From NCBI RefSeq assembly GCF_022447245.1, contig NZ_JAKVBC010000007.1:1-64000 (forward strand): a stretch of DNA of 64,000 nt. The letters run 5' to 3'. Below, one piece after another: positions 11,815-54,473 of the stretch. The position numbers were made by a program, and so were the translations under genes. The DNA comes from Kordia sp. GTDB lineage: Bacteria > Bacteroidota > Bacteroidia > Flavobacteriales > Flavobacteriaceae. The notes under the pieces were generated by a model. It saw nothing but the letters and a program-made list of their open reading frames with translations, was not told the origin of the DNA and searched no databases. Numbering within the stretch: position 1 is the first letter of the stretch; every line of letters begins with the position of its first letter.

Positions 11815-11924
11815 AATTAGCTTATTTATGATGACTTAGTAGCAAGTTTTAAGGAAATCTTACAGAATGTTTAACAAGTTACGCATACTATTAATTGCGT
11901 AAATATGTTATTTTTATCAGTTAT

Positions 11925-14900
11925 ATGATGAATGCATACGAACACATACAAAAGAAATTAAGTCAATTTGTAACCAAATATTATACAAACGAACTTATCA
12001 AAGGCGCGATATTATTTTTTAGCATCGGTCTATTATATTTTATCATCACCTTATTGGTGGAACATTTTCTATGGTTAAGCACAGGAGCAAGGACAGCGTT
12101 ATTCTGGGTTTTTATTCTGGTAGAAGTAACGCTTTTCGCGAAATTTATTATGCTACCAATGACAAAATTGTTTAAACTACAGAAAGGAATCAGTTTCAAA
12201 CAAGCATCTCAAATTATTGGAAATCATTTCCCAGAAGTGAATGATAAATTACTGAATGTATTGCAATTGTCTGAAGCGTCTCAGGAATCTGAATTGTTAT
12301 TGGCAAGTATCGAACAAAAATCGAAAGAACTACAACCAATTCCGTTTCAAGTAGCCATCAACTTTAAAAAAAATATCAAATATGCCAAGTATGCTATTCC
12401 TCCGTTAGCAATTGTGTTGCTAGTGTGGATTTCTGGAAACAGTTCATTATTTAGTCAAAGTTATGAGCGTGTAGTAAATTACAAAACCGACTATGAGCCA
12501 CCAGCGCCTTTTCAATTCATTGTTGTAAATGACAGTTTTCAAGCCATCGAAAATCAAGCATATAAATTACAAGTGCAAACCTTAGGTGATGTAATTCCAG
12601 AGGAAGTGCAAATATCGTTAGGAGACGAAACCTATTTTCTTCAAAATAAAGGAGTAGGAACGTTTGAATATACATTTTCACAACCAAAAGAAGCTACAAC
12701 ATTTACGCTAAATGCTAATGAAGTTACCTCAAAACCGTATACGCTAAATGTTGTAAAAGTACCTTCATTGGTAAATTTCCAAATGGTATTGGATTATCCA
12801 GCATACACCAAACGAAAAGACGAGGTTTTAAAAAGTACTGGAAATGCAACCATTCCAGAAGGAACCAAAATTACATGGGAAGCCAAAGCAAAACAAACAG
12901 AAAAATTAGAATTAATTTCAAAAGATACTACGTATGTGTTTGGCAAGGAGGCTAATGACTTTAAATTGGAACAAAAAATATATCAAAAAATAGATTATCA
13001 AATAAGCACAAGTAATTCTGAACTTAAAAACTATGAAAATCTTGGATTCAGCATTAATGTAATCAAAGATGAGTACCCAAAAATAGATTTACAATCCAAA
13101 AGAGATTCAATAGATGGCAGAACGATGTATTTTTTAGGACAAGTTTCGGATGACTACGGATTGCGAAGATTACAATTGGTATACTATCCATCGGAGAATG
13201 TAGCCAATAAAGCTTCGGAAAACATTCCAATCAGTACCTCAAACATTGATCAATTTCAATATACATTTCCAGGAAATTTACAATTGGTTAAAGGTGTAAA
13301 TTATGAATTCTATTTTGAACTAACGGATAACGATGGAATTCGAGGAGGAAAGAAGGTAAAAAGTGAAATCTTCAGCTATCGAAAACTTACTGATACAGAA
13401 TTGCAAACAGAACAGTTGCAACAACAAAATGAAACGATTAAAGACTTAGATAAATCATTAGAAAAACTTCAAAAGCAACAAGACGAACTCAAAAAGATCA
13501 CGAGAAACCAAAAGGAGAAGAGTGAACTTAATTTTAACGATCGTAAAAAGCTTGAAAAATTCTTGCAACGTCAAGAACAAAGTGATCAAATGATGAAGAA
13601 ATTTTCTAAGCAATTAGAGCAAAACTTAGAAGATTTCCAAAAAGAAGAAACGCAAGATGATCAAGATAAAGAGTTGTTGAAAGAACGTTTAGAACGTCAA
13701 CAAAAAGAATTGGAGAAAAATGAAAAGCTGATGGAAGAATTAAAGAAATTAGCTGATAAAATTAGTGAAGAAGAACTCCAAGATAAACTAGAAGAATTAG
13801 GGAAGCAACAGCAAAACAATAAAAAGAATTTACAGCAAATTCTTGAATTAACGAAGCGCTATTATGTAACCAAAAAGGCTGAAAAAATTCAAAGACAACT
13901 GCAAGAACTTGCTAAAGAACAAGAGGAGCTATCCAAGAAAAATGGAGGCGATAATACAAAAGAAAAACAAGACGAACTCAATAAGAAATTCGAACATTTG
14001 CAAAAACAAATGGATGAATTAGATGAAGAGAATAACAAACTCAAAAAGCCTTTAGACTTAGAGCGCAAAAAAAACGACGAAGAAGACATTAAGCAAGAAC
14101 AGCAAGATGCAACTGAAGATTTACAAAACAGTGAGGAATCAGAAAACGAACAGCAAAAAAGCGAGCAACAACAAAGCGCAAAACAAAAGCAAAAAAAAGC
14201 TGCTCAAAAAATGCAACGTATGAGCAAAAGTATGCAAACTGCCATGCAAATGAGTGGGCAAGAAAGCATACAAGAAGATGCTGAAATGCTACGCCAAATA
14301 CTAGACAATTTGGTTCTATTTTCTTTTGACGAAGAAAATTTAATGAAAGGTTTTGAAGAAATTGACAATTCAAATGCAGGCTATGCTGCTAAGCTAAAAC
14401 GTCAAAAAGAATTGCGTAAAATGTTTGAGCATGTAGATGATAGTTTGTTTGCATTGTCTTTACGTCAGCCTTCTATCTCCGAACGAATCAATGGTGAAAT
14501 TACGGAGATATATTATAACATCGATAAATCTTTAGAGCAATTGGCAGAGAATAATGTTTACAGAGGAGTAGCCGCACAACAATATGCTTTGACATCCACA
14601 AATAAGTTGGCAGATTTTCTAAGTAGTGCACTAGACAACATGAACCAAAGCATGGGACAAGGTCAAGGACAAGGTTCTCAAGGAATGGGGCAAAGTGGAC
14701 AAAACCAAGGTCAAGGAAAAGGATTTCAGTTGCCAGATATTATTCAATCACAGGATGAATTGAGTAAACAAATGCAACAAGGTATGAAGAAAGAAGGCCA
14801 AGGGAAAGATGGTAAAGGAGGCAAAGAAGGTGGTAAAGAAGAAGGCGATAAAGGCAAAGGAAATAAAGATGGAAAAGATGGAGAAAACGGTCAAAAAGGA

Positions 14901-15350
14901 GGTGGATCGGGAAGTGGAAATGAAGACGAGTCAGGTAAATTATATGATATATTCAAGCAACAACAAGCGTTAAGAAATCAATTAGAACAGCAATTAAAAG
15001 ATAAATACGGAGGAAAAATCAAAGATCCAAAGGCGATGGAAATATTGAAACAAATGGAGAAAGTAGAAACTGAATTGCTCGAAAGAGGATTCAATGATGA
15101 AACAATGAAAAAGATGATTGAGCTCAAATATCAACTCCAAAAATTAGACAAAGCTGCCTTTGAACAAGAGAAAGAAAGTAAACGAGAATCTACTACAAAT
15201 CGCAAAGATTTCAACAATACTACAAATGAAATAATGCCTGATGCTCGACAGTATTTCAATCAAATTGAGATATTAAACCGACAAGTATTACCTTTGCGCA
15301 ATAATTACAAAAAGAAAGTACAAGAGTATTTCAAGAAAAAGGATGATTAG
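11925..15350 (+). CDS. DUF4175 family protein, large membrane-anchored coiled-coil protein
   Basis: The protein has 1141 residues from the ATG at 11925; a TTG at 11895 would add ten residues and is less likely. Two membrane helices occur near residues 30-80 and a third near 145-165. An extracytoplasmic beta-rich region (about 180-480) and a long, highly charged, Gln/Lys/Glu-rich coiled coil (about 490-770) follow. Low-complexity Gly/Gln stretches (MGQGQGQGSQGMGQ; GKDGKGGKEGG) precede a helical tail. This architecture is typical of Bacteroidota DUF4175, whose function is unknown to me. The last eight bases overlap ybeY, indicating coupling. Confidence 0.88.
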   Translation: MMNAYEHIQKKLSQFVTKYYTNELIKGAILFFSIGLLYFIITLLVEHFLWLSTGARTALFWVFILVEVTLFAKFIMLPMTKLFKLQKGISFKQASQIIGNHFPEVNDKLLNVLQLSEASQESELLLASIEQKSKELQPIPFQVAINFKKNIKYAKYAIPPLAIVLLVWISGNSSLFSQSYERVVNYKTDYEPPAPFQFIVVNDSFQAIENQAYKLQVQTLGDVIPEEVQISLGDETYFLQNKGVGTFEYTFSQPKEATTFTLNANEVTSKPYTLNVVKVPSLVNFQMVLDYPAYTKRKDEVLKSTGNATIPEGTKITWEAKAKQTEKLELISKDTTYVFGKEANDFKLEQKIYQKIDYQISTSNSELKNYENLGFSINVIKDEYPKIDLQSKRDSIDGRTMYFLGQVSDDYGLRRLQLVYYPSENVANKASENIPISTSNIDQFQYTFPGNLQLVKGVNYEFYFELTDNDGIRGGKKVKSEIFSYRKLTDTELQTEQLQQQNETIKDLDKSLEKLQKQQDELKKITRNQKEKSELNFNDRKKLEKFLQRQEQSDQMMKKFSKQLEQNLEDFQKEETQDDQDKELLKERLERQQKELEKNEKLMEELKKLADKISEEELQDKLEELGKQQQNNKKNLQQILELTKRYYVTKKAEKIQRQLQELAKEQEELSKKNGGDNTKEKQDELNKKFEHLQKQMDELDEENNKLKKPLDLERKKNDEEDIKQEQQDATEDLQNSEESENEQQKSEQQQSAKQKQKKAAQKMQRMSKSMQTAMQMSGQESIQEDAEMLRQILDNLVLFSFDEENLMKGFEEIDNSNAGYAAKLKRQKELRKMFEHVDDSLFALSLRQPSISERINGEITEIYYNIDKSLEQLAENNVYRGVAAQQYALTSTNKLADFLSSALDNMNQSMGQGQGQGSQGMGQSGQNQGQGKGFQLPDIIQSQDELSKQMQQGMKKEGQGKDGKGGKEGGKEEGDKGKGNKDGKDGENGQKGGGSGSGNEDESGKLYDIFKQQQALRNQLEQQLKDKYGGKIKDPKAMEILKQMEKVETELLERGFNDETMKKMIELKYQLQKLDKAAFEQEKESKRESTTNRKDFNNTTNEIMPDARQYFNQIEILNRQVLPLRNNYKKKVQEYFKKKDD

Positions 15351-15765
15351 TTTTCATTATGAGACACAATTTGAACTTACAAACGAGGGACAAATTGAGC
15401 AATGGATTAGCAAAGTAATCGCATCTGAGGACAAGCGAGAAGGAGATATAAATTATATTTTCTGTGATGATGAATATCTGCATAAATTGAATGTAGAATT
15501 TCTAAACCATGACACGCTTACTGACATTATAAGCTTTGACAATTCGGTTGGAAACGAATTGCACGGAGACATTTTTATCTCCGTGGAACGTGTTGCCGAC
15601 AACGCCAAAGATTTCAAAGTTTCCACAGAAGAAGAACTGCGTCGTGTGATGGTACATGGTGTTTTGCATTACTGCGGATACAAAGATAAAACACACAAAG
15701 AGCAGGAAGAAATGACCGCTAAGGAAAATGATAAACTTGAAATGTTCCACGTGGAACACTCTTAA
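15343..15765 (+). CDS. ybeY: rRNA maturation endoribonuclease YbeY
   Basis: This 140-residue UPF0054 protein is a zinc-dependent endoribonuclease acting in 16S rRNA 3' maturation and ribosome quality control. The metal-binding motif is H105-G-V-L-H109-YCGYKDKTH118, with the longer spacing to the third histidine seen in Bacteroidota. DTLTDIISF upstream is the conserved family segment. The start overlaps DUF4175 by eight bases. The C-terminal residues MFHVEH are encoded by a parS palindrome, so the tail sequence may be constrained by DNA function. Confidence 0.95.
   Translation: MISFHYETQFELTNEGQIEQWISKVIASEDKREGDINYIFCDDEYLHKLNVEFLNHDTLTDIISFDNSVGNELHGDIFISVERVADNAKDFKVSTEEELRRVMVHGVLHYCGYKDKTHKEQEEMTAKENDKLEMFHVEHS
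15743..15758. promoter_or_regulatory. parS-like centromere site 1 (inside ybeY)
   Basis: The perfect 16-bp palindrome TGTTCCACGTGGAACA fits the ParB-binding parS consensus of many bacteria. It is read through as Met-Phe-His-Val-Glu-His at the YbeY C-terminus. Two further exact copies follow within 2.9 kb. Confidence 0.88.
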
Positions 15766-15815
15766 ATCACTTTCAAATATAATCGATAAATATAACCGAA
15801 TTTCAATCGTTAGAT

Positions 15816-17687
15816 ATGTTTAATACGGAATATGATGTGATCGTAGTTGGAGCTGGACACGCAGGATCTGAAGCTGCCGCCGCTGCTGCGAATATGGGAA
15901 GCAAAACTTTGCTCGTTACGATGAACTTGCAGAACATTGCACAGATGTCTTGCAATCCTGCTATGGGAGGAATTGCCAAAGGACAAATTGTGCGTGAAAT
16001 TGATGCGCTTGGTGGATATAGTGGAATTGTTACGGACAATTCGGCCATTCAGTTCAAGATGCTGAATAAGTCAAAAGGACCTGCAATGTGGTCGCCAAGA
16101 GCACAAAGCGATCGTATGCGTTTTGCAGAAGAATGGCGTCTTATGTTAGAACGAACAGAGAACCTTGATTTTTATCAAGAAATGGTGCGTGGTTTAATCA
16201 TTGAAGGAGGAAAAATAAAAGGTGTAAAAACATCTCTAGGACTAGAAATTAGATCCAAAACTGTAGTACTTACCAATGGAACTTTCTTGAATGGATTGAT
16301 CCATATTGGAGATAAAAACTTTGGTGGTGGAAGAGCAGGAGAAAGAGCCGCAACTGGAATCACAGAAGAACTTACGGAACTCGGTTTTGAATCTGGAAGA
16401 ATGAAAACAGGAACACCACCACGTGTGGATGGTAGATCGTTAGATTATTCAAAAATGATCATTCAACCTGGAGACGAACAGCCGGATAAATTCTCATATC
16501 TAAAAAACACAAAAGCATTAGAGAATCAACGTGCTTGTCACATGACATATACATCACCAGAAGTACATGATTTACTTCGTGAAGGTTTTGATAGATCGCC
16601 AATGTTTAATGGTAGAATTAAATCGATTGGACCTAGATATTGCCCTTCAATTGAAGATAAAATTAACCGTTTTGCAGACAAAGATCGTCATCAATTATTT
16701 GTAGAACCGGAAGGTTGGAATACAGTTGAAGTATATGTAAATGGCTTCTCAACTTCGCTTCCAGAAGATGTTCAATTTAAAGCCTTACGATCTGTTGCTG
16801 GTTTTGAAAATGTGAAGTTCTTTAGACCAGGTTATGCAATCGAATATGATTACTTTCCACCAACACAATTAAAGCATACATTAGAAACTAAGATTGTAGA
16901 CGGATTGTTTTTTGCAGGACAAATTAATGGAACAACAGGATATGAAGAAGCAGCCTCGCAAGGACTGATGGCAGGAATAAATGCAGCACTAAAAGTCCAA
17001 GAAAAAGAAGAATTTATCCTAAAAAGAAATGAAGCTTACATCGGAGTTTTAATTGATGATTTAATCACAAAAGGAACAGAAGAGCCTTATCGAATGTTTA
17101 CGTCTCGAGCAGAATATAGAACACTACTAAGACAAGACAATGCCGATTTTAGATTAACACCAGTTGGACATGAATTAGGTTTGGCAAGTGAAGAACGTTT
17201 ACGTGCGATGGAACAAAAGAAAACAAACTCAGATGCATTTATTCAATTCTCTAAAGACACGAGTGTAAAGCCAGATGAAATAAATCCTGTACTCGAAGCA
17301 AAGAACTCTTCAAAAGTAAAGCAACAAGATAAGATGTTTAAGATCTTCGCACGTCCAAATATCAGTATGGATGACATGCGAAAAGTTGCTTCAGTAGAGA
17401 ACTTTATTCAAGAAAATAATCTTGGAAAAGACGTATTAGAACAAACAGAAGTACAAGTTAAATACGCAGGATATATCAACAAGGAAAAAAATAATGCAGA
17501 CAAGTTAAATAATTTGGATCGTGTAAAAATTCCTCTTGATTTTAAGTATGAAGGTTTAACAAACCTGTCCATGGAAGCACGTCAAAAACTATCCAAAATC
17601 AGACCCGTAAACTTATCACAAGCATCACGAATAAGCGGTGTTTCTCCTAGTGATATAAGTGTGATGCTAGTATATTTAAACAGATAA
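15816..17687 (+). CDS. mnmG: tRNA uridine-5-carboxymethylaminomethyl modification enzyme MnmG (GidA)
   Basis: This 623-residue FAD enzyme acts with MnmE to place the (carboxymethyl)aminomethyl group on U34 of certain tRNAs. The N-terminal FAD-binding motif is VVGAGHAGSEAA (about 8-19), followed by MGGIAKGQIVREIDALGG. GRMKTGTPPRVDGRS and FRPGYAIEYDYFPP are family signatures, and the C-terminal helical MnmE/tRNA-binding domain is complete. In many bacteria mnmG sits near the replication origin, in keeping with the parS sites on both sides. Confidence 0.98.
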   Translation: MFNTEYDVIVVGAGHAGSEAAAAAANMGSKTLLVTMNLQNIAQMSCNPAMGGIAKGQIVREIDALGGYSGIVTDNSAIQFKMLNKSKGPAMWSPRAQSDRMRFAEEWRLMLERTENLDFYQEMVRGLIIEGGKIKGVKTSLGLEIRSKTVVLTNGTFLNGLIHIGDKNFGGGRAGERAATGITEELTELGFESGRMKTGTPPRVDGRSLDYSKMIIQPGDEQPDKFSYLKNTKALENQRACHMTYTSPEVHDLLREGFDRSPMFNGRIKSIGPRYCPSIEDKINRFADKDRHQLFVEPEGWNTVEVYVNGFSTSLPEDVQFKALRSVAGFENVKFFRPGYAIEYDYFPPTQLKHTLETKIVDGLFFAGQINGTTGYEEAASQGLMAGINAALKVQEKEEFILKRNEAYIGVLIDDLITKGTEEPYRMFTSRAEYRTLLRQDNADFRLTPVGHELGLASEERLRAMEQKKTNSDAFIQFSKDTSVKPDEINPVLEAKNSSKVKQQDKMFKIFARPNISMDDMRKVASVENFIQENNLGKDVLEQTEVQVKYAGYINKEKNNADKLNNLDRVKIPLDFKYEGLTNLSMEARQKLSKIRPVNLSQASRISGVSPSDISVMLVYLNR

Positions 17688-17696
17688 AATTTTTAG

Positions 17697-17712
17697 TGTT
17701 CCACGTGGAACA
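17697..17712. promoter_or_regulatory. parS-like centromere site 2 (after mnmG)
   Basis: The sequence TGTTCCACGTGGAACA is identical to site 1. Here the symmetry extends to 20 bp, AGTGTTCCACGTGGAACACT (17695-17714). It lies in the 33-base gap between mnmG and the acetyltransferase gene and might also fold as a weak terminator for mnmG. Confidence 0.88.
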
Positions 17713-17720
17713 CTTTTCTT

Positions 17721-18548
17721 ATGGAAATAAAATCATTAGAAAATACACCGATCAGAGATATTGTAGCTACTTTAAATTTTGCGTTCTCTGATTACTTTAT
17801 TCCGATCAATTTTACGGAAGAATATGTAAACGAACGTTGGACAGCTTCGGGTGTAGATTATAATTTATCCTTTGGTATTTTTGACAGAAACAAACTTGTT
17901 GGTTTCATTATTCATGCAATCAATTTTTATGGAGAAACTAAAGTTGCCTATAATGCTTCTACTGGAGTTGTTCCTTCACACAGAAGACAAGGTTTGTTGT
18001 CTAAACTTTACGAAAAAGCAATTTCTGTTTTAAAAGAAAACGGAATCCAAAAAAGTACATTGGAATGTATCACAAAAAATGAACGCGCAATCTTAGCGTA
18101 CCAAAAAGTTGGATTTAAAATTGATCGTCATTATCATTTGTACAAATTAGATTGGAAAGGAGTACGAATTAAAACTGCATTAAAAGTAGAAGAACGTTCC
18201 AATTATTCTCTTCAAGATTTTAAATATTTACAAAATTATTTCCCATCGATAGAAAATCAAGATCATTGTTTAGAAAAATACAAAGAGAACTTAAAATCGA
18301 TTGTTGTTTTAGAAAGTGAAAAAATTGTAGCGTATTTAATTTTTCATAAAATTTCAAAAAGAATTCATAGGTTAGGAGTGCACGAAAATAATTGGAATAC
18401 TTTTGGCGAAATTTTATTTTCAGGATTACCCGCAGGAAATTATAATATTATTAATATAGATTCAGAAAATAAAAACATTCACAATTTTTTCAAAAAAATG
18501 AATTTTGACAATTATATTAATCAATATGATATGAGTTTTATTTTATAA
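17721..18548 (+). CDS. GNAT-family N-acetyltransferase
   Basis: This 275-residue protein has an N-terminal GNAT domain (about 1-150). Its acetyl-CoA pyrophosphate loop is GVVPSHRRQGLLSKL (about 90-104), and ERAILAYQKVGFKI is the usual beta6-alpha4 region. The C-terminal half is a shorter, degenerate second GNAT-like lobe ending in FFKKMNFDNYINQYDMSFIL. The substrate is unknown; small molecules or protein N-termini are both possible. It lies between two parS sites and 33 bases after mnmG. Confidence 0.88.
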   Translation: MEIKSLENTPIRDIVATLNFAFSDYFIPINFTEEYVNERWTASGVDYNLSFGIFDRNKLVGFIIHAINFYGETKVAYNASTGVVPSHRRQGLLSKLYEKAISVLKENGIQKSTLECITKNERAILAYQKVGFKIDRHYHLYKLDWKGVRIKTALKVEERSNYSLQDFKYLQNYFPSIENQDHCLEKYKENLKSIVVLESEKIVAYLIFHKISKRIHRLGVHENNWNTFGEILFSGLPAGNYNIINIDSENKNIHNFFKKMNFDNYINQYDMSFIL

Positions 18549-18617
18549 TAAAGGTTAGTTTTTATAACTGTGGAAGTATTTTGTAAAAACTAAAATTTTT
18601 TAATAAATATAAACTTA

Positions 18618-18633
18618 TGTTCCACGTGGAACA
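18618..18633. promoter_or_regulatory. parS-like centromere site 3
   Basis: This is a third exact TGTTCCACGTGGAACA, symmetrical over 18 bp (18617-18634). It lies in the 203-base gap between the acetyltransferase and methyltransferase genes. It is 921 bp from site 2, which is itself 1954 bp from site 1. Confidence 0.88.
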
Positions 18634-18751
18634 TTTTTATAAATTACTTTTTTAGATAGAATTTGTAGACATTTTTGAAATTGAGATAAAGCAAAAAATA
18701 AAAATATAATTGTATCTAACTAGATACGATAAATAAAATAGGAGCACTAAA

Positions 18752-19594
18752 ATGGAAAACATAACGGTAAAAGATCATTCCGTTTCAAACGAAGAATTTC
18801 AATTGGTTTTTGATGAAACTTTAGAAATGTATAAAACCGAGCCGCAACCGAGTTTGGAAACCTTAGCTTCTTATTACGAAAGTGAAGATTATATTTCACA
18901 CACAGATGCTAAAAGAAATCTTTTTGAAAAAATATATCATTGGGTTCGTACTTATATGCTTTCTAAAAAAATGATGCTTGTTGATCGGTATACAAAAAGC
19001 GATGCTGAAAAAGTATTAGACATAGGTTGCGGAACAGGAGACTTTTTAGTAATGGCCAAAAAATATAAATGGGAAGTTGCAGGAATTGAACCTGACGAAC
19101 AAGCACGAAAAATTGCTATTACCAAAATTAAAACAGAAATTCATACGAACGAATGGCTTTCTGAAATTCCAGATCATAGTTTTGATGCTATTACCATGTG
19201 GCATGTTTTAGAACATGTTCCAAATTTAGAAGAGCAGATTCAAACCTTAAAAAGAATAGTAAAACCAAAAGGAAGTATTTTTATCGCTGTTCCAAATTTT
19301 AAAAGTCATGATGCAAAACACTATAAACAATTTTGGGCAGCGTATGATGTTCCACGACATTTATGGCACTTTTCTCAAAAAGCAATAAAATCACTTTTTG
19401 AAAAGGAAAATATGAAAGTAGTAAAAATCTTACCAATGAAATTTGATGCTTATTATGTGAGTTTGCTTTCCGAAAAACACAAAACTGGAAAAATGAACCC
19501 AATCAAAGGATTTTACAGAGGATTTGTTTCAAACTTTAAAGCAATCTTATCTTCTGAGTATTCTTCGCTCATTTATGTCATTAAAAATGACTAA
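18752..19594 (+). CDS. Class I SAM-dependent methyltransferase
   Basis: The 280-residue protein has a Rossmann-type methyltransferase core with motif I VLDIGCGTGDFLVMAK (about 88-103), the acidic residue of motif II in EVAGIEPDEQA, and ITMWHVLEHVPNLEEQI (UbiG/Methyltransf_12-like). A helical N-terminal extension (about 1-85) and a basic C-terminal segment are present. The substrate is unknown. In flavobacteria such proteins are often found in core chromosomal regions beside mnmG. Confidence 0.88.
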   Translation: MENITVKDHSVSNEEFQLVFDETLEMYKTEPQPSLETLASYYESEDYISHTDAKRNLFEKIYHWVRTYMLSKKMMLVDRYTKSDAEKVLDIGCGTGDFLVMAKKYKWEVAGIEPDEQARKIAITKIKTEIHTNEWLSEIPDHSFDAITMWHVLEHVPNLEEQIQTLKRIVKPKGSIFIAVPNFKSHDAKHYKQFWAAYDVPRHLWHFSQKAIKSLFEKENMKVVKILPMKFDAYYVSLLSEKHKTGKMNPIKGFYRGFVSNFKAILSSEYSSLIYVIKND

Positions 19595-52778: not shown

Positions 52779-54473
52779 ATGAGTAACATTAAAATACACG
52801 AAAGAACAAGAGCACAAGAATCATCAGGAGCTATTGAACGTTTGTATATTACCATGAGACATTTATTTAATCGTGGATTTTACAAACCTATGGGTGTTTC
52901 TGGGGAAACGTTGCGCCAGTCTTTACTAGTATTGCGTCCCGAAATATATGGTTCTATAGCCGAACAGAAGGCAGAAATTAATGGTTTATTATATGTAATA
53001 GATCGTTTGCCAATTGGTATTGAAGAATGTCGTTTTATCAATTTAACATCTGACGAAGGATATAAAAATTCGCACTTCAAAGCAATCATTCCACCAAAAA
53101 GAAGGAGAAACTGTTACCGAATTGATGAGGAACAGATGAATATTGAAATTACGCGTGGACGTTCGGAAATCTATGATATTTTAACGCATTTGACGTTTTT
53201 ATTTATAGAATCACACAAAATTTGCGATCGTGTTTTGATTGGAGAAGATGGAGAAACAACACGCGATTGGGAAAAACTAGAAGCTGCTGTTAGTAAAAAG
53301 AAAAAACTAAGTTTAGCCGAACGTGAAGTTGCTATTACACATACAGCCAATATTTTAGGAAGAACTTTTGAAGAAATTTTAGATGCGCATAAAACATTTT
53401 CTACTAAAGAAAACCCAGAGCGCTTTTTAAGCATTATCTATTGGTTAGGAAAACTAGCCATCAAAGAAACATCAAAAGGTGAAAAAAGAACGATCACATT
53501 CAGTCCTGTGCTACGTGAACGTTTAGGACATCATATTCACGGAGAAGTTTGGGCAAATAATATCAAAAAAGTGCTCAAAGAAAATAAGTTATTACATAGA
53601 CCAATTCATATCATTAGTGCTAATATGCACAGTGTGATGAACTCTATATTTGCACCAAAATTGTTGCAAAAACAACTCAACACTACTGACGAATTTGATA
53701 TTTTTGAAGCCCTAAGTGCCTCAGGAAATAATTCACTTAGAAATAAAGTAGAAAAAGAAGCGTTGAAAAAGGGAATGATTTACATTAAAGATGAATCAGG
53801 AACAAATATCAACGTACAAATTTTTGATACAGCTAAAATCGATTTTAGCAAAACAACGTACACATGTTGTGCTACTAACGATGCAGAAAAACCTGTATTA
53901 TTTGTGATGGATTACGCCTTTGGAGAACAAGCCTATGAAACCATAGATGAGTTCTTAAAACCGTATACAAACAAAAACAATGCAGAAAAAGAATACTTAA
54001 ATGTGGCTTCGGTTTCCATTATGGGGAAAGCAGGAATCTTAGAAGGAGGAAAAGGAGACATTATGATTCCGTCAGCTCATATTTTTGAAGGAACAGCAGA
54101 TAACTATCCTTTTAAAAATGAATTGACAAAAGAAGATTTAGAAGGTCACGGATTACAAGTATTTGAAGGTTCAATGATTACAGTGTTAGGAACGTCTTTG
54201 CAAAACAAAGATATTTTGAAATTCTTCCACGATTCTACATGGAATGTTATTGGACTTGAAATGGAAGGAGCACATTATCAAAAAGCCATTCAATCGGCTT
54301 CAAAGATACGAGGAAGTATTTCTGAAAATGTAAAAGTAAGATATGCCTATTATGCATCGGATAACCCACTAGAAACAGGAAGTACCTTGGCTTCTGGAGG
54401 ATTAGGAACAACAGGTGTAAAACCAACATATTTAATAACAAGAAAAATATTAGAACAACTATTTAACAACTAA
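52779..54473 (+). CDS. DUF6909 family protein (nucleoside-phosphorylase-like C-terminus)
   Basis: The protein has 564 residues from the ATG at 52779. The N-terminal half contains MRHLFNRGFYKPMGVSGETL and is helical. The C-terminal part (about 390-560) shows GLEMEGAHYQKAI, the metal/ribose motif of purine-nucleoside phosphorylase-like folds, and YAYYASDNPLETGSTLASGG. The family is recalled as flavobacterial DUF6909; its activity is not known to me. It precedes the Wzz-like gene by ten bases, so it may be part of the polysaccharide operon. Confidence 0.82.
   Translation: MSNIKIHERTRAQESSGAIERLYITMRHLFNRGFYKPMGVSGETLRQSLLVLRPEIYGSIAEQKAEINGLLYVIDRLPIGIEECRFINLTSDEGYKNSHFKAIIPPKRRRNCYRIDEEQMNIEITRGRSEIYDILTHLTFLFIESHKICDRVLIGEDGETTRDWEKLEAAVSKKKKLSLAEREVAITHTANILGRTFEEILDAHKTFSTKENPERFLSIIYWLGKLAIKETSKGEKRTITFSPVLRERLGHHIHGEVWANNIKKVLKENKLLHRPIHIISANMHSVMNSIFAPKLLQKQLNTTDEFDIFEALSASGNNSLRNKVEKEALKKGMIYIKDESGTNINVQIFDTAKIDFSKTTYTCCATNDAEKPVLFVMDYAFGEQAYETIDEFLKPYTNKNNAEKEYLNVASVSIMGKAGILEGGKGDIMIPSAHIFEGTADNYPFKNELTKEDLEGHGLQVFEGSMITVLGTSLQNKDILKFFHDSTWNVIGLEMEGAHYQKAIQSASKIRGSISENVKVRYAYYASDNPLETGSTLASGGLGTTGVKPTYLITRKILEQLFNN

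Follow-up and report, generated by a model that had tools for sequence, protein, structure and literature searches.

Three palindromes around mnmG in a Kordia sp. genome as a probable chromosomal parS centromere

Chromosomal ParABS centromeres are known from Bacillus subtilis, Caulobacter, and Pseudomonas, and the locus described here shares with them the 16-bp parS consensus, a ParA-ParB pair, and probably the clustering of sites in the origin domain, but differs in the wide separation of the sites from parAB and dnaA. Livny's 2007 survey, the standard one for parS, may list Bacteroidetes sites. Another comparison is offered by Hi-C work on 12 gut bacteria, in which parS clusters were found at the origins; the portions of that paper available to us further state that origins are not systematically located at dnaA and that its two Bacteroidetes have no known condensin (PMC10197239). 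In these respects, a parS cluster marking the origin, dnaA not systematically there, and no known condensin, the gut Bacteroidetes resemble the present case, whereas nothing on mnmG, ybeY, or Flavobacteriaceae arrays was met in the same portions of text. Within the Flavobacteriaceae, two published genomes, those of Mariniflexile litorale and Algorimicrobium, already have mnmG as a predicted origin, Ori-Finder having put oriC next to this gene (PMC11278836 and PMC12843772, both as partial text). According to the accessible text of PMC11278836, dnaA was at odds with the GC skew in Mariniflexile, and the legend of its Figure 3 labels mnmG as ter, contradicting the text itself. By contrast with the present study, parS is absent from the accessible text of both papers, and the literature search, judged by its listings, returned no publication on YbeY-embedded parS or on parS arrays.

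The DNA analyzed here, referred to as the window, is a stretch of 64,000 nucleotides that forms part of contig C67 of a Kordia sp. assembly (GCF_022447245.1). A sequence-only reading had reported three perfect, identical 16-mers in it, and all three proved exact and correctly placed: parS1 (15743..15758) inside the 3′ end of ybeY, where it codes for MFHVEH, parS2 (17697..17712) 10 bp past the mnmG stop codon, and parS3 (18618..18633) in the interval between a GNAT gene and a methyltransferase gene. Each reads TGTTCCACGTGGAACA, a match to the ParB consensus, with no strand assigned. The genes around them all lie on the plus strand, namely a DUF4175 protein gene (11895..15350; PF13779, 3.9e-09), which is a conserved neighbor upstream of ybeY; ybeY itself (15343..15765; PF02130, 4.7e-29), encoding the 140-aa endoribonuclease YbeY with translated parS1 as its C-terminal tail; mnmG/gidA (15816..17687; 623 aa; PF01134, 6.5e-164), which is flanked by parS across the family; the gene of a GNAT-family acetyltransferase (17721..18548), found between parS2 and parS3 in Kordia; and that of a class I methyltransferase (18752..19594), a conserved neighbor downstream of mnmG.

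No fourth site with up to three mismatches was present in the window, where 0.11 would be expected by chance, and at the same tolerance three or more sites arose in none of 100 shuffles. Throughout the assembly (5.24 Mb in 82 contigs, 99.75% complete), exact TGTTCCACGTGGAACA occurs only in these three copies, all within 2.9 kb, compared with about 0.0005 copies per genome predicted from base composition; one parS-like place with two mismatches was detected, at C25:8004. The genome-wide search that the earlier reading called for revealed no spread of the 16-mer over the chromosome. The parS consensus is given as TGTTTCACGTGAAACA in the part of PMC10197239 at hand.

The genome encodes one ParB above the curated cut-off (contig C8, parB at 53085). 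This protein comprises ParB_N, HTH_ParB, and ParB_C domains, and its residues 39-241, including the GERR stretch, match solved ParB proteins. A ParA-type ATPase gene (L049:12195-12965) immediately precedes parB, which starts at 12971 of the same locus and is followed by a DUF5683 gene and further genes, among which dapB and lepB were named by eye. A whole-assembly search located dnaA on contig C26. The sequence-only reading was therefore right that neither parA/parB nor dnaA lies in the window, these being on C8 and C26 and the window on C67, and the ParB homolog on which its interpretation depended is present with ParA adjoining. Few and clustered parS copies, a three-domain ParB, and a ParA-type ATPase beside parB are among the marks of a chromosomal ParABS system, and each was found. 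As side observations, second ParB-like frames were noted in four other genomes (G086, G027, G145, and G102), with internal stop codons in G086 and G027, and a weak second DnaA match in the Kordia genome is explained by an ATPase frame in L225 (contig C62:4000-10000), where, by eye, IS21-like transposase and ATPase frames adjoin a peptidase-containing ABC exporter-like frame.

The association with mnmG extends across the family. In a sample of 149 Flavobacteriaceae genomes, one per genus, the pattern TGTTNCACGTGNAACA was found in 134, with 1-3 sites each, and a reversed control pattern in none. Thirty loci of other Flavobacteriaceae genera returned by this search were inspected by tblastn, and mnmG adjoined parS in 29 of them, the thirtieth (L031) showing the methyltransferase neighbor only. 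Among the 15 of 149 genomes devoid of an exact site, seven carry a mismatched site beside mnmG in the fetched locus, and G114 and G030 show, among the matches listed, a pair at mnmG spacing. Across eight named whole genomes the mnmG cluster holds 49 of 50 sites. Over the phylum, an exact site was present in 145 of 198 genomes and absent in 53 (the reversed pattern matched in three); 20 of 27 newly inspected phylum loci contained mnmG, one incomplete locus showed ybeY and DUF4175, and six, from families f5 and f9, had neither mnmG nor ybeY. The link between mnmG and parS is thus frequent in the phylum without holding everywhere. By eye, parS in the f9 loci L160 and L161 lies near DciA-like frames, in L161 also near a RecF-like frame, and not near mnmG, while in the f5 loci L153-L156 it is away from mnmG, with threonine-synthase-like and RlpA-like neighboring frames. 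Closer to the query, two other Kordia keep the three-site layout with the third site downstream; parS1 and parS2 are invariant in the Kordia alignments while adjacent intergenic bases differ, and Kordia 396 has an extra open frame ahead of the third site. Taken together, the unique exact cluster, the single ParB beside ParA, and the family-wide link to mnmG lend good support to the centromere proposed from the window, and the three palindromes are in all likelihood chromosomal parS sites of a ParABS centromere, probably one in the origin domain, with parS1 doubling as the tail of YbeY.

This double role of parS1 can be followed in detail. The sequence-only reading had parS1 embedded in ybeY and dictating a C-terminal MFHVEH; the embedding was confirmed, and the tail has to be extended by one residue, the frame ending in MFHVEHS before the stop codon. 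The nearest named YbeY sequences are those of two Kordia, at 89% and 87% identity, which points to Kordia or a very close genus. Among the closest 80 YbeY loci, which are the best 80 of 590 ranked by likeness to a query that itself carries the parS tail, 79 end in [ML]FHV[EK], that is, in translated parS; since the sequences are related, these do not represent 79 independent events. Within the tail, CAC is used in 79 of 79 cases (39% in the rest of ybeY) and GTG likewise in 79 of 79 (9% elsewhere in the gene), while the last position of the motif is GAA in 74 and AAA in five, with GAA at 82% and AAA at 69% in the remainder of ybeY. The codons of the 79 tails are thus fixed against normal usage, which would be explained by selection on the DNA site. 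In the one-per-genus family loci that show ybeY, parS lies inside its end in five of 20.

The same 80 loci contain 451 sites of the form GTTNCACGTGNAAC, from 1 to 11 per locus and up to 11 in Flavobacterium, with a spacing in arrays of most often 45-47 bp; six scrambled palindromes gave 0 matches. Placed by distance and not by annotation, 78 sites fall in ybeY, 269 in the first 1.2 kb beyond it, and 104 at 1.8-3.6 kb from its end, a distance corresponding to the region after mnmG, with none elsewhere.

The position of the replication origin was addressed mainly in relatives. In ten relatives assembled as single contigs, taken as circular and with two lengths rounded, the distance from parS is 0.93-2.03 Mb for dnaA (24-49% of the circle) and 0.62-1.41 Mb for parB (17-35%); in these genomes the family centromere keeps its place at mnmG, far from both parAB and dnaA. 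For four complete relatives, third-codon GC skew was regressed on gene strand and replichore, using twenty 20 kb stretches per genome, a resolution of 5%, and 300 bootstraps. The fitted origin coincided with parS in G148 (297 of 300 bootstraps), G124 (258, the other 42 at -5%), and G131 (152, with 147 at +5%), and lay 10% of the circle away in G069 (197 bootstraps, with 78 at parS). Raw GC skew agreed within one or two bins in the three relatives so examined. In G124 the raw cumulative skew has its minimum 30-40 kb from parS, and over 400 kb around parS the third-codon profile of this genome is noisy, its lowest point being about 100 kb off. With one mismatch allowed, DnaA boxes of the E. coli type (TTATCCACA) form no cluster in C67, with at most two per 400 bp, and the 80 YbeY loci hold five exact copies of this box, so that the boxes did not locate oriC.

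On the Kordia contig itself, the raw skew changes direction near 11.9 kb, coinciding with a change in gene strand. Placing the origin from the organism's own contigs was attempted and dropped, as this turn matches gene strand and third-codon skew is unsupportive; intergenic skew on C67 is small and of mixed sign. Origin proximity of the Kordia cluster is accordingly inferred from its relatives, since its own raw skew tracks the genes and its third-codon skew is negative for genes of both strands. The expectation that the GC-skew origin would fall at this locus is borne out in the relatives, at parS in three of four and 10% off in G069; for the 11.9 kb point on the Kordia contig, third-codon skew is one measure that speaks against it.

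These data leave some room for a reading in which the sites are true parS and the origin of this Kordia is not close, lying for instance past the right end of the contig. Third-codon skew remains negative for 110 kb to the right of mnmG in the genes of both strands (-0.116 for 78 plus-strand and -0.075 for 13 minus-strand genes), and in G124 the genes of 144-160 kb of C67 are found across parS with unchanged orientation, which favors such displacement. However, the origin of relatives is at or near parS, 78 of 91 long genes to the right of 11.9 kb are on the plus strand with raw GC skew mostly positive there, and the block at 84-97 kb is inverted across parS in G124, as origin-centered inversions produce. 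On balance a distant origin appears unlikely, though it is the most serious of the alternatives considered.

Far less probable are two readings that deny the sites a role in segregation. One regards the palindromes as intrinsic terminators that would end transcription of ybeY, mnmG, and the GNAT gene. Widened parS2 (17695..17714, plus strand) does read as an 8-pair hairpin followed by TTTCTT after mnmG, and widened parS3 (18617..18634, plus strand) as a 7-pair hairpin followed by TTTTTATA, both terminator-like as consensus matches only, with folding z-scores of -3.68 and -3.98, respectively; these two sites may double as terminators. As an explanation of the whole cluster, however, termination is very improbable: parS1 precedes the ybeY stop codon and has no T run, a locus can hold up to 11 sites, and RNA pairing is not preserved, since the two variable positions are C/A in 144 of the 451 sites and would form a C-A mismatch in the stem. 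The nine terminator-like matches observed, against 4.0 (sd 2.5) in shuffles, also weigh against it. Still more remote is the idea that the sites are operators of a dedicated ybeY/mnmG regulator unrelated to segregation. It would account for perfect 16-bp palindromes adjoining the same genes in many genomes, but the sequence is that of the ParB consensus, of which the form printed in PMC10197239 is cited above, and six phylum loci have other genes beside the sites.

Under the ParABS centromere reading, the condensin side of the system deserves separate attention, given that Smc and ScpA, the usual partners of ParABS, were both undetected in 21 of 21 family genomes. For ScpA the count was 0 of 21, against 9 of 14 controls; Smc above cut-off likewise gave 0 of 21, against 10 of 14 controls, with weak matches in all 21. 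Loading of Smc by ParB in the family is in doubt because of this double negative in the 21 genomes; a divergent condensin may exist. The best SMC_N-matching frames in the Kordia genome are 556 and 380 aa, and two matched frames of 799 and 734 aa were rejected as condensins after reading of the sequence by eye. The 799-aa frame (L224:561-2960, contig C23) combines an HNH-like N-terminal part with an SMC-type ATPase in its C-terminal part and looks defense-like by eye. An SMC_N match in a RecF-sized frame is also found on contig C8 (90012-91022), about 37 kb from parAB.

By analogy with established ParABS biology, ParB made from the parAB genes on another contig would bind parS, close as a CTP clamp, and spread over the mnmG region, and ParA would then pull the sister copies apart. 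The parS cluster would lie in the replication-origin domain, as GC skew indicates for relatives and as is presumed for this genome, and parS1 in addition codes for the YbeY tail, its codons probably being fixed by selection on the DNA site. More broadly, and with a little less than even confidence, the centromere of the Flavobacteriaceae can be viewed as a fixed, mnmG-anchored module that has grown into arrays of up to 11 parS in Flavobacterium and entered the YbeY tail, that marks an origin no longer tied to dnaA or parAB, and that works without Smc-ScpAB, through ParA alone or by loading an unrecognized condensin. A ParABS centromere as such is of a known kind; the growth of the arrays, the site within a coding sequence, and the absence of detected Smc-ScpA go somewhat beyond the routine.

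Several consequences follow for the family. The parS sites allow the origin domain to be recognized from sequence in Flavobacteriaceae, and rotating or labeling chromosomes at dnaA would misplace the origin by a quarter to half of the circle, as measured in the ten relatives. In the YbeY tail, nature provides a clear example of a protein whose end is dictated by a DNA-binding site. Finally, a ParB-parS system with no detectable Smc-ScpA offers a setting in which the Smc-independent part of ParB function may be studied.
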